Assembly (NCBI GenBank): GCA_013214025.1
Contig: JABSRN010000007.1
Span: 124,001-188,000, forward strand
DNA length: 64,000 nt
Direction: 5' to 3'
Source: Polyangiaceae bacterium
GTDB lineage: Bacteria > Myxococcota_A > Polyangia > Polyangiales > Polyangiaceae
Shown here: positions 50,604-57,493 of the stretch, piece after piece
Layout of the letters: the number at the start of each line of letters is the position of its first letter
Position numbering within the stretch: position 1 is the stretch's first letter
Program-made: the position numbers and the translations under genes
The notes under the pieces: generated by a model
What the model was told of the DNA's origin: nothing
Seen by the model: the letters and a program-made list of their open reading frames with translations, nothing else
Database searches by the model: none

Positions 50604-50690
50604 GGAGAGGTGTCCGAGTGGCCGAAGGTGCCTGATTCGAAATCAGGTGTGGGGGCAACCCTACCGTGGGTTCGAATCCCACTCTCTCCG
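50604..50690 (+). tRNA. tRNA-Ser (anticodon CGA)
   Basis: 87 bases. The acceptor GGAGAGG pairs with TCTCTCC (the last pair is G-T), and G is the discriminator. The anticodon stem CCTGA/TCAGG encloses the loop TTCGAAA with anticodon CGA (50638-50640), reading UCG. The long variable arm (typical of Ser) contains GGGGGCAACCCT. The T arm GTGGG/CCCAC holds TTCGAAT. The 3' CCA is not encoded here. Confidence 0.97.
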
Positions 50691-50759
50691 CTAGGGTAGA
50701 CAGGAACAATAGCCAAGCAAGAATCAAATAATTCGAGTTCCTAAACTCAGTAAGTCTTA

Positions 50760-50902
<143 letters not shown>

Positions 50903-53746: not shown

Positions 53747-53995
53747 TCACGCCGCACACACCAAGGTCTGTCGCGCGCCGCTCGCCACCAAGAGTCCTGA
53801 GAAAGTGAGCCCCAAATGGTTCCCTTGAACGAGGCCCCGATGCCGCAAGCGAGCCAGTACAGGGCGGACCCGATCCGGTACCTGCCCCACCGCCGTACAT
53901 AGGTCGTCCAGGCAGGGGCGCCGTCCTAGCTCGGCGTGAAGAAGGTAGAGTTCGGAGAGCAGAAACTGGGCACTGGCGCCTGATGTGTTGTTCAT
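53747..53995 (-). CDS. Small winged-helix-like protein
   Basis: 82 residues from ATG 53995. A helix-turn-helix pattern is visible: LHAELGRRPCLDDLCTAVGQ, VPDRVRPVLARLRHRGLVQG, then a wing (LGLTFSGLLV). Resembles MarR/LexA-style winged helices without a full family match. The frame is open upstream to 54166, across the start of the divergent EamA-like gene, which argues for 53995. It may regulate itself or that neighbour. Confidence 0.6.
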   Translation of the reverse strand: MNNTSGASAQFLLSELYLLHAELGRRPCLDDLCTAVGQVPDRVRPVLARLRHRGLVQGNHLGLTFSGLLVASGARQTLVCAA

Positions 53996-54126
53996 ATGCA
54001 CTGGATACCTGAGCAGTAAAACATGGGCCAAATTAACTGTCCTCTTGTTCAGTGCTATTCTTCCCGCATTCATCTGGTGTGAGGGGATGTAGGTAGAACG
54101 CCGGCCCTGGCGCTGGTAAGCCATGC

Positions 54127-54495
54127 ATGGCGCAACGATTTCGAATCGTGCAAACCCCGCTCGCATCCGTGCTCATGTTCCTTGGCGCGTCCGTCTTCGG
54201 CGCGTTGGGCCAGTTTTTGTACAAGGCGGGGGCTGCAGCGGCCACAGGCGGTCCGACGAGCTACCTGCTTAACCCGCAGCTGCTGAGCGGAGTCGGCTGT
54301 TACACCGCCGTCATGGTGCTGTTTGTGGCCGCTTTCAAGCGGGGCGGATCCCTCAGCGTGCTGTACCCGGTCTACGCGAGCACCTTCATCTTCGCCGCCA
54401 TCATCAGCTACTTCGCCTTCGGCACGCCCATCAAGGCGGTCAACGTGCTCGGCATGGGGCTGCTGGTTGCCGGCATGTTCTGTATGGGGCGCTGA
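54127..54495 (+). CDS. Small four-span membrane transporter (EamA/SMR-like)
   Basis: 122 residues, four hydrophobic segments (LASVLMFLGASVFGALGQFL, LSGVGCYTAVMVLFVAAF, VLYPVYASTFIFAAIIS, VLGMGLLVAGMFC). The LSVLYPVYAS motif resembles DMT/EamA halves and SMR proteins, which work as dimers. Three bases separate it from the CDP-alcohol transferase, so it belongs to the phospholipid operon. It may flip a lipid precursor, but this is inference. Confidence 0.8.
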   Translation: MAQRFRIVQTPLASVLMFLGASVFGALGQFLYKAGAAAATGGPTSYLLNPQLLSGVGCYTAVMVLFVAAFKRGGSLSVLYPVYASTFIFAAIISYFAFGTPIKAVNVLGMGLLVAGMFCMGR

Positions 54496-54498
54496 AGC

Positions 54499-55176
54499 GT
54501 GGCGGAAGCTCCCTACGAAGCTCCCGACCGAAGGCCGCTAACCAGCCGCGGATTTGCCGTGTTCCAGGCGCTCGCCACCACCTTGGTGCGGCGGGGCGTC
54601 TCGCCGAACGTCATATCGACGTGCAGCATCGCGTTCGCCATGGTGGCAGCGGGCGCACTGCTCGGCACGTTGAGCTGCGACGCCGCCTTCGAACGCGGCT
54701 TATGGCTGGTCGCAGCGGGGGGCATCCAACTTCGGCTGGTGGCGAATCTGTTGGACGGCATGGTGGCCGTGGAGTCTGGCCAGGCGTCTCCCCTGGGAGA
54801 GCTGTTCAACGAAATCCCGGACCGGATCTCCGACATCACCGTACTGGTCGCGCTCGGCTTCGTCAGCGGCAGCCACGTGCACCTCGGCTACTCCGCCGCC
54901 TTGCTGTCCGTTTTCGTCGCCTACGTGCGCGCGATGGGGGGCTTGGCCGGCGCCGGACAAGTGTTCTCCGGATTGATGGGCAAGCCCCACCGGATGTTCA
55001 TCGTCACGGTTCTCTGCTTATTTCAGGGTTTCGCCCCCGCCAGCTGGCAAGTCGCTCTCTTGCCCCACGACATCGCAGCTCCCGGTTTTGCGCTCGGAGT
55101 GATCTGCCTCGGTTGCCTGGTCACGGCGTTCGGGCGGCTCAGCCAGATCGCAGACAAGCTGAGCGCTACCCAGTGA
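54499..55176 (+). CDS. CDP-alcohol phosphatidyltransferase-like protein with altered motif
   Basis: 225 residues from GTG 54499, several membrane spans. The CDP-OH-P motif (DxxDGxxARx8GxxxDxxxD) is present but changed: the first Asp is N83, D86-G87 and A90 are kept, Arg is V91, G100 is kept, the third Asp is N104 and D108 is kept. This resembles the E. coli YnbA-type relatives rather than classical PgsA. Phospholipid head-group transfer is still the best guess. Stop overlaps the cdsA-like start by one base. Confidence 0.82.
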   Translation: MAEAPYEAPDRRPLTSRGFAVFQALATTLVRRGVSPNVISTCSIAFAMVAAGALLGTLSCDAAFERGLWLVAAGGIQLRLVANLLDGMVAVESGQASPLGELFNEIPDRISDITVLVALGFVSGSHVHLGYSAALLSVFVAYVRAMGGLAGAGQVFSGLMGKPHRMFIVTVLCLFQGFAPASWQVALLPHDIAAPGFALGVICLGCLVTAFGRLSQIADKLSATQ

Positions 55177-56120
55177 TGCCGGAATTCGCCATCAGCGCGG
55201 ATCCCATTTTCGGGACCTACGCGCTGTGGGTCGGCACGCTACTGGCGATCGCTGGCGTGATTCTGTTCGTCCTCGGGACTCTACTCAAGCGGGACGTGAG
55301 TCAGGTCTGGCTGACCTATCGCGGGTGGCTGATCATGATCCCAACATTGTTCGGCACTGTCATGTTGGGACGTACCGCCAGCGTACTGGGCGTCGCCGCG
55401 CTTTCGGTCGTCAGCTTCAAAGAGTTCGCGCGCGCCACCGGCCTGTACAAGGACTGGTGGCACACATGCACCGTCTATCTAGGCATCGCCGGCTTGGCAA
55501 TCGCCACGCTGTTGCCCGATCCGACAACTGGCGCGAACGGTTGGCACGGCCTATTTCGGACAATGCCCGTCTACGTGATCGCTCTGCTGATGATCATTCC
55601 CGTCATCCGCAACAAGACGGACGGCCAACTGCAGCAAGTCTCCTTGTCGATTGTCGGCTTCGCTTATATGGGCTGGATGTTCGGGCACCTGGGCTTCCTC
55701 GCCAACTCGCCCCATTTTCACGGCTATGTCGCCTATCTCATTTTCGCGGTCGAAATCAATGACATCGCAGCGTTCACCTTCGGCAAAGCCTTCGGCAAAC
55801 ACCAACTCCGTAGTAACGTCAGTCCTAGCAAGACCGTGGAGGGCGCACTCGGAGCGCTTGCCGTAGCGATGGCACTGCCCTGGGTTCTGCATTTTTCGTT
55901 CCCCCATTTCGGCACCACCGAACTCATCCTCACCGGTCTCATTGTGGGTATCGGAGGCCAATTGGGTGATCTCACCCTCAGCTTCATCAAACGGGATCTC
56001 GGCGTGAAAGATATGGGGCAATCCATCCCCGGTCACGGCGGCTTCCTCGACCGCGTCGACAGTCTGATCATCGTGGGGCCGCTATTTTTTCACATGGATC
56101 GCTGGTTCCACGGGATCTAG
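55176..56120 (+). CDS. CdsA-like phosphatidate cytidylyltransferase
   Basis: 314 residues with seven or eight spans. The CDS signature is intact: SFIKRDLGVKDMGQSIPGHG, then GFLDRVDS. It makes CDP-diacylglycerol from phosphatidate and CTP at the inner membrane. Start TGATG-overlaps the CDP-alcohol transferase and the PlsC fusion begins 11 bases after its stop, so the three are one operon. It resembles YnbB more than housekeeping CdsA (inference from neighbours). Confidence 0.93.
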   Translation: MPEFAISADPIFGTYALWVGTLLAIAGVILFVLGTLLKRDVSQVWLTYRGWLIMIPTLFGTVMLGRTASVLGVAALSVVSFKEFARATGLYKDWWHTCTVYLGIAGLAIATLLPDPTTGANGWHGLFRTMPVYVIALLMIIPVIRNKTDGQLQQVSLSIVGFAYMGWMFGHLGFLANSPHFHGYVAYLIFAVEINDIAAFTFGKAFGKHQLRSNVSPSKTVEGALGALAVAMALPWVLHFSFPHFGTTELILTGLIVGIGGQLGDLTLSFIKRDLGVKDMGQSIPGHGGFLDRVDSLIIVGPLFFHMDRWFHGI

Positions 56121-56131
56121 GGGCAAGTGCT

Positions 56132-57493
56132 GTGACGATGGAACCCTGGAGATATTCTCCGGCTGCGGACATTGACTCGACACTGCCCGAGCGCTTTCGC
56201 TCCTTTCCGCGCGAGCCCCACCTCTGGATGTATGTGCTGCGCTTCGTCGCCGCCCTGGTGATGCGTACCTGGGTCCGAATCTGGCATCGCCTGGAAATCC
56301 ATGGCGCCGAACACCTTCCCCAAGACGGTTCCTTCGTGCTCGTGTGTAATCACCAAAGTCACCTCGACATGCCGTGCTTGGGTGCAGCTCTTCCCATCAG
56401 CTGGATCCATCGCGCCTTTCCCGCGGTCGCCGCTGACTATTTCTTCAACAACGGACCGCGCAGTGCCTTCTTCGCCATCATGATCAACGCGCTCCCCTTC
56501 GAACGCGAAGGCGACACCGATCAGAGCCTTCAGCTCTGCCGGGAATTGCTGCAATCTGACGGCAACATCCTGATGATTTTCCCCGAAGGCACGCGCAGTC
56601 AGTCTGGCTCGGTCGGTCGATTTCGTTCGGGTATCGGTCGGCTAGTTGAAGGCAGTGATGTATTGGTCGTGCCCTGCCACTTGGACGGCGCCCACCGGGC
56701 CTTTCCGAAAGGCGCCGTGATTCCGAGACCCGTCAAGCTGAAACTGCGTATCGGCGAGCCGCGGGATTACTCCGCGCACCAAACGGGACGCGAGACGGTC
56801 GCTCAAATCAGTCGAGATCTGGAATCAGCTGTCCGTGCCCTCGGCATCGGTGCCCCTTCGAAAACACAGAAATATCGCGCCCGGACACCGAAGAACGCAC
56901 GAAACTCACCCGGCCGGCGGCTGCCCGGCTCTCGCGGCTCTCGCGACACCGTCGTCATGGCACCTCCCGTGAGCATATGGATTGCCGGGGATGTGTGCGA
57001 CAACCCTCCCGTGACCAACAACGACACTCTACGACGAGTTCGCTACGCCTTCGACTTCAGTGATTCGAAGATGATGCAACTGTTTGAGCTTGGGGGTCGA
57101 GAGGTAAGCCGCGCTGAGCTCAGCGACTGGCTAAAGCGCGACGACAACCCCGACTTTCAGCCATGCAGCGACGTCGTGTTAGCAACATTTTTGAACGGCT
57201 TGATCGTCGACCGCCGGGGACGACGGGAGGGTCCCCAACCAGAGCCGGAGACGCGGCTCAACAACAATCTGGTGCTCACGAAGATCAAGATCGCGTTGAG
57301 CTTGCGCAGCGAAGACCTCGTCGAGATCCTCCAGTTGGCCGCCTACGGCATCAGCCAGCACGAGCTCAGCGCGTTTTTTCGCCGCCCGGGGCATCGCCAG
57401 TTCCGTGAATGCCAGGATCAAATCCTGCGGCGCTTTCTGCAGGGCCTCCAGATTAAGTACCGCAACCAAGACCCACCGCCGCCCACCGATTGA
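56132..57493 (+). CDS. PlsC-like acyltransferase fused to a DUF1456 (YehS-like) domain
   Basis: 453 residues from GTG 56132 (ATG 56138 alternative). The N-terminal PlsC half has NHQSHLD (H74, D79) and FPEGTRS (150-156), the catalytic HX4D and substrate motifs of 1-acylglycerol-3-phosphate acyltransferases. A basic linker (~245-290) leads to a DUF1456 domain (294-445) with its two repeats (NNDTLRRVRYAFDFSDSKMM; NNNLVLTKIKIALSLRSEDL). No stop separates them, but a GTG at 57011 could give a separate DUF1456 product. Confidence 0.9.
   Translation: MTMEPWRYSPAADIDSTLPERFRSFPREPHLWMYVLRFVAALVMRTWVRIWHRLEIHGAEHLPQDGSFVLVCNHQSHLDMPCLGAALPISWIHRAFPAVAADYFFNNGPRSAFFAIMINALPFEREGDTDQSLQLCRELLQSDGNILMIFPEGTRSQSGSVGRFRSGIGRLVEGSDVLVVPCHLDGAHRAFPKGAVIPRPVKLKLRIGEPRDYSAHQTGRETVAQISRDLESAVRALGIGAPSKTQKYRARTPKNARNSPGRRLPGSRGSRDTVVMAPPVSIWIAGDVCDNPPVTNNDTLRRVRYAFDFSDSKMMQLFELGGREVSRAELSDWLKRDDNPDFQPCSDVVLATFLNGLIVDRRGRREGPQPEPETRLNNNLVLTKIKIALSLRSEDLVEILQLAAYGISQHELSAFFRRPGHRQFRECQDQILRRFLQGLQIKYRNQDPPPPTD

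Follow-up and report, generated by a model that had tools for sequence, protein, structure and literature searches.

A candidate CDP-diacylglycerol side branch encoded by a YnbA-YnbB-PlsC gene set with an adjoining DUF1456 frame in a Polyangiaceae genome

Among the cytidine diphosphate (CDP)-alcohol phosphatidyltransferases, the phosphatidylinositol-phosphate (PIP) synthase PgsA1 of Mycobacterium tuberculosis has been described in structural terms. According to the available portions of the respective papers, its residues R155 and R195 bind inositol phosphate (PMC4634129), and D68, D71, D89, and D93 form a two-metal site in which D89 bridges in one chain (PMC6506517). For Escherichia coli YnbA, we found no reported product in the literature, as judged by listings, and no published work on its function by title. 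Likewise, a broader cluster search judged by title yielded no account of the gene set described here. This set comprises four reading frames within a 64,000-nucleotide (nt) stretch of contig JABSRN010000007.1 of a Polyangiaceae bacterium, referred to below as the window. They encode an EamA-like membrane protein, a YnbA-type transferase, a YnbB-type CDP-diacylglycerol synthase (CdsA), and a PlsC-type acyltransferase that runs in frame into DUF1456. With moderate confidence, we read the locus as a dedicated CDP-diacylglycerol side branch beside the housekeeping CdsA, PgsA, and PssA, in which DUF1456 is likely a separate gene that happens to share the frame of PlsC. The gene set probably makes a minor membrane lipid.

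The gene set and its relatives

The four open reading frames (ORFs; Table 1) are tightly spaced, as the first-pass annotation of this sequence had stated. The YnbA-type gene starts with GTG after a 3-nt gap and overlaps the YnbB-type gene by 1 nt (TGATG), and the latter is followed by the PlsC frame after 11 nt. The HX4D (HQSHLD) and FPEGTR motifs of PlsC are unbroken, again as first described. Judged from their families, PlsC would form phosphatidic acid by acylating lysophosphatidic acid, and the YnbB-type enzyme would convert this product to CDP-diacylglycerol. The YnbA-type enzyme would then transfer the phosphatidyl group to a phosphate-carrying acceptor, and a possible role of the EamA-like protein is to carry the product or a precursor through the membrane.

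The first-pass annotation had suggested a second phospholipid pathway and had linked this idea to the presence of separate cdsA, plsC, and pgsA genes, which do exist. Genome-wide Pfam searches gave 2 matches for PF01148 (the window and contig C97), 14 for PF01553, and 10 for PF01066. Elsewhere in the genome, the PF01066 proteins include one PgsA-like and one PssA-like protein, both by eye with a canonical DxxDG and Asp at position 3. Given this second CdsA and the many other acyltransferases and CDP-alcohol transferases, the window set is not the sole phospholipid set of the organism. A further ORF of about 490 amino acids (aa), just outside the window (G000:C152:192581-193504), has two CDP-alcohol transferase matches with motifs that appear degenerate by eye.

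An identical four-gene order is found in one other genome of the same order (G032), with identities of 77, 56, 69, and 59% for the EamA-like protein, YnbA-type protein, CdsA, and PlsC, respectively. A YnbB-type CdsA at E 1e-60 was found in two genomes among the 183 of the order, this one and that of the window. A genome of the same class (G386) carries two tandem EamA-like genes, a ligase-acyl carrier protein (ACP)-PlsC protein, CdsA, and a YnbA-type gene; its EamA-like proteins are 38% identical to each other and 35 to 39% identical to that of the window. By eye, its PlsC forms the C-terminal portion of an acyl ligase-ACP-PlsC protein of 927 aa (L081:5803-8586, minus strand). An EamA-like gene accompanies the YnbA-YnbB-PlsC set in three genomes of the class. 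In a search of 377 sampled genomes of the phylum with the YnbA-type protein (E 1e-15), only the window and G386 were among the matches listed, and G032, which has a YnbA-type gene, was not among them. The cassette is rare and patchy in this group.

Outside the phylum, a tblastn search with the transferase gave matches in 161 of 72,556 plasmid records. Eleven plasmid records were opened, and nine are annotated at the site (the Vibrio and Proteus records are not). In all nine, one of which was reached via CdsA, the transferase, a phosphatidate cytidylyltransferase, and a lysophospholipid acyltransferase adjoin in one of three gene orders, with a small extra gene intervening in one record. PlsC is therefore a usual partner of YnbA and YnbB elsewhere, and not one of the "new parts" that the first-pass annotation had seen beside ynbAB. 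In Pseudomonadota, 38 of 398 genomes gave a transferase match at E 1e-12; within flanks of about 1.5 kb, the 30 loci that were fetched contained CdsA in 20 cases, PlsC in 14, and at least one of the two in 23. In Azospirillum sp. B510, the genes overlap in a single run in which a TetR regulator and an acyl-[ACP]-phospholipid O-acyltransferase precede the cassette. The recurrence of the YnbA-YnbB-PlsC set points to a minor branch of phospholipid synthesis, one that may have escaped routine lipidomics.

Table 1. Features of the locus in window coordinates
Feature	Coordinates	Strand	Evidence
EamA/SMR-like small membrane protein, 122 aa	54127..54495	+	PF00892 below cut-off; 77% identity to first gene of the G032 operon
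YnbA-type CDP-alcohol phosphatidyltransferase, N83/N104 for motif aspartates 1 and 3	54499..55176	+	PF01066 (CDP-OH_P_transf), 27.9 bits against a cut-off of 22
YnbB-type CDP-diacylglycerol synthase, signature intact	55176..56120	+	PF01148 (CTP_transf_1), 184.5 bits, above cut-off; signature at residue 269
PlsC-type lysophosphatidic acid acyltransferase domain, residues 1-238	56132..56845	+	PF01553 (Acyltransferase), 87.8 bits, above cut-off
55-codon linker between PlsC and DUF1456	56846..57010	+	Codon statistics: usage at low end of coding
Tandem DUF1456 (YehS-like)	57011..57493	+	Two PF07308 repeats, 180.1 bits; GTG 57011 is the start of free-standing homologues

The PlsC-DUF1456 frame

As first reported, PlsC continues without a stop into DUF1456, and Pfam recognizes both domains in this single frame of 453 codons (56132-57493). 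As sequenced, a PlsC-DUF1456 protein would be made, perhaps together with free DUF1456 from GTG 57011. The implied conserved fusion was not borne out: beyond the window, none was found in the family (108 genomes), the order (183), the 398 Pseudomonadota, or seven genomes from a contig search, whose query (the fused protein plus one linker pattern) has poor recall for PlsC. In the order, 11 DUF1456 matches outside the window all stayed clear of the PlsC domain (query residues 1-238), and the single PlsC match was that of G032. The Pseudomonadota gave 106 DUF1456 rows and 14 PlsC rows (hand count), none covering both domains. One DUF1456 row (G867) begins at query residue 226 and has an internal stop, and three others (G892, G888, and G731) lie in open frames of 487 to 765 codons in which no PlsC match was reported. 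The minus-strand loci L014, L066, and L067 were judged by match range and by open-frame length (251 to 314 codons, too short for both domains). No paper treating PlsC together with DUF1456 was found in the literature.

Most likely, DUF1456 is a neighboring, normally separate gene that shares the PlsC frame through the absence of a stop. The free-standing DUF1456 proteins start at the position of window residue V294 (GTG 57011) in 7 of 7 aligned rows, the window included, and the PlsC of G032 ends after 236 aa at RALG, the point at which the window protein continues as RALGIGAPSK. A functional, lineage-specific fusion, in which DUF1456 would dock on, sense, or control the acyltransferase, strikes us as a lesser but real possibility. 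It is favored by the 453 stop-free codons, by an Arg/Pro/Ser-rich linker that could be a flexible tether, and by the lack of a clear ribosome-binding site before GTG 57011, unlike G002, where GAGGAG precedes the same GTG; this last point speaks for a translated fusion and against two separate genes. However, the shared start, the PlsC terminus in the sister operon, and the lack of any match elsewhere that spans both domains all argue against it. The 165-nt linker remained open in frame in 26% of 20,000 base shuffles, and when all three frames are allowed, we estimate the frequency of an open in-frame junction by chance at about 1 in 12, so that an open frame alone says little in favor of a fusion. 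The codon usage of the linker also points away from a functional fusion. At -0.23 bits per codon, it falls below the minimum of 55-codon coding windows (-0.05; mean, 0.28; off-frame mean, -0.39), as measured with a small training set to which the same genes belong, although the signal is weaker when synonymous choices alone are scored (9 of 180 coding windows are equally low). Its G+C content is flat over the codon positions (0.62, 0.64, and 0.67). To date, the fusion has been seen in this genome only, and the chance lack of a stop codon may account for it.

The DUF1456 model built from seven sequences is all-helical, with a predicted local distance difference test score (pLDDT) of 87.7. Foldseek found no match to it at E 0.001 or better, with calmodulins heading the list at poor root-mean-square deviation. 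In a second structure comparison (best Z, 5.3), 21 of 22 rows were regulators or complexes by title, mainly phage repressors and XRE-type proteins, all at low Z, and a sequence search against solved structures gave a single weak match (E 0.18). A tandem helix-turn-helix is possible on the basis of this model.

The Asn/Asn motif of the YnbA-type transferase

The canonical D-x2-DG...G-x3-D-x3-D motif of CDP-alcohol transferases reads N83-x2-D86-G...G-x3-N104-x3-D108 in the window protein. The DxxDGxxAR...GxxxDxxxD pattern is therefore broken at Asp 1 and Asp 3, both Asn, and at AR, which is AV. The first-pass annotation had rightly noticed the two Asn residues but had presented them as a trait of this locus, which they are not: Asn occupies both positions in all 45 homologues compared (15 of 15 in a first set and 30 of 30 at the Pseudomonadota loci), E. 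coli YnbA included, and N83, D86, N104, D108, K162, R165, and R213 are invariant throughout. These homologues, which span Pseudomonadota, a Bacteroides, and the phylum of the window, were gathered through their similarity to the window protein or its neighbor, so that the sampling favors the same motif. E. coli PgsA has Asp at both sites, as by eye do the PgsA-like and PssA-like proteins of the genome itself. The Asn pair is an old, fixed signature of the YnbA family. By a definition of the YnbA type that was derived within this analysis (CDP-OH_P_transf plus Asn at positions 1 and 3), the window transferase belongs here, with the Asn pair and an adjoining CdsA paralogue.

By profile, PIP synthases are the closest relatives with solved structures. 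They ranked first when a 13-member profile was compared with solved structures (6h53, M. tuberculosis PgsA1, E 1.3e-14), and all 13 members matched the NCBIfam models for archaetidylinositol- and phosphatidylinositol-phosphate synthase. In the alignment to the M. tuberculosis enzyme, N83 and N104 correspond to D68 and D89, and R165 and R213 correspond to R155 and R195; the equivalents of D71, D93, R155, and R195 are retained, all four in 45 of 45 homologues. Because the PIP-synthase arginines are kept, we infer that the YnbA-type acceptor carries a phosphate, and because two motif aspartates are replaced by Asn, an altered, less acidic metal site is to be expected. The fixed Asn pair and fixed arginines together yield a testable idea about acceptor and metal use by YnbA.

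Several observations weigh against the proposed side branch. The ORF of the first gene stands, but its EamA label, taken over from the first-pass annotation, fails the Pfam cut-off (14.9 against 28.2 bits). The window transferase misses the NCBIfam PIP-synthase equivalog cut-off (49 against 170 bits), and the acceptor pocket is partly eroded, with R109 missing in 10 of 45 homologues and the K135 equivalent, R144, in 11. According to the available text of two papers, overproduction of YnbB in E. coli increases MPIase, and the phospholipid role of CdsA is not replaced (PMC6362211, PMC7018664). In the first of these, partially purified CdsA8 made Compound I, N-acetylglucosamine-pyrophosphate-diacylglycerol (GlcNAc-PP-DAG), which argues against a need for YnbA there, and ynbA goes unnamed in the text available to us (PMC6362211). 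Finally, in an excerpt on the Methanocaldococcus jannaschii phosphatidylserine synthase, the D62N exchange abolishes activity, and addition of Mg gives no rescue (PMC8633023). By our reading of the sequence, D62 would correspond to motif Asp 3, and YnbA might hence be inactive or perform other chemistry.

Following this reasoning, YnbA-type proteins could be inactive scaffolds for YnbB, such that the cassette yields only CDP-diacylglycerol or aids the synthesis of an MPIase-like lipid. The Asn residues at two of the four metal-binding Asp sites in all 45 homologues, the inactivation of the canonical enzyme by Asn at Asp 3, and the role of E. coli YnbB in MPIase formation all suit this explanation. 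We nevertheless consider it unlikely, as the other motif residues and the phosphate-binding arginines are invariant, which would be needless in a mere scaffold. More speculative still, and in our view improbable, is a separate chemistry within the CDP-alcohol transferase fold, in which a sugar- or polyol-phosphate would attack through its phosphate to give a pyrophosphate-linked diacylglycerol lipid comparable to the MPIase precursor GlcNAc-PP-DAG. If so, the two PIP-synthase arginines would hold the attacking phosphate, the less acidic metal site would fit an anionic attacking group with no requirement for a strong base, and YnbB would feed CDP-diacylglycerol to YnbA, explaining why it serves MPIase and not bulk phospholipid.

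Sequence accuracy, surroundings, and comparison with known systems

That the fused frame reflects a sequencing or assembly error that deleted the PlsC stop is improbable: the genome is a draft in 184 contigs and is the only one in which the fusion is seen, but no break interrupts the frame from PlsC through the linker to DUF1456, and a slip of one base close to the PlsC end would only shift the stop to 56970 or 57061. Sequencing error, which the first-pass annotation had allowed for in the transferase motif, can be rejected as the origin of the Asn pair, given its presence in all 45 homologues.

Upstream of the operon lies a short divergent ORF (53747-53995, minus strand) that appears winged-helix-like by eye and is a possible regulator; it had no Pfam match when scanned in a longer form (53747-54166). 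A PADLOC search for defense systems was without a match at E 0.01. Farther upstream, two tRNA-Ser genes (cga and gga; 50604-50902) lie 156 nt apart, and the second is followed by a perfect inverted repeat of 33 nt (loop, 2 nt), within which the 3' end of the tRNA recurs in reversed form. A terminator, an attachment-site remnant, and an assembly fold-back are candidate explanations for this repeat.

In conclusion, the locus combines features of several known systems. It has the two PF07308 repeats and the start of YehS/DUF1456 proteins, with its copy lying in frame behind PlsC. Compared with the M. tuberculosis PIP synthase, in which D68, D89, and R137 are present, the YnbA type has Asn at both Asp positions and has not kept the equivalent of R137. 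The YnbA-YnbB-PlsC sets annotated in Pseudomonadota and a Bacteroides, for which no function is given, have the three enzymes of the window side by side, although in variable gene order and, according to the annotation tables, without an EamA-like first gene or DUF1456. The E. coli K-12 site carries ynbC and ynbD and, unlike the window, has neither PlsC nor the EamA-like gene. The resemblance to E. coli ynbA-ynbB proposed in the first-pass annotation nevertheless holds (29% identity to YnbA over 91 aa and 44% to YnbB over 118 aa), as the two loci share the Asn/Asn transferase, the CdsA paralogue, and the 1-nt overlap between their genes.

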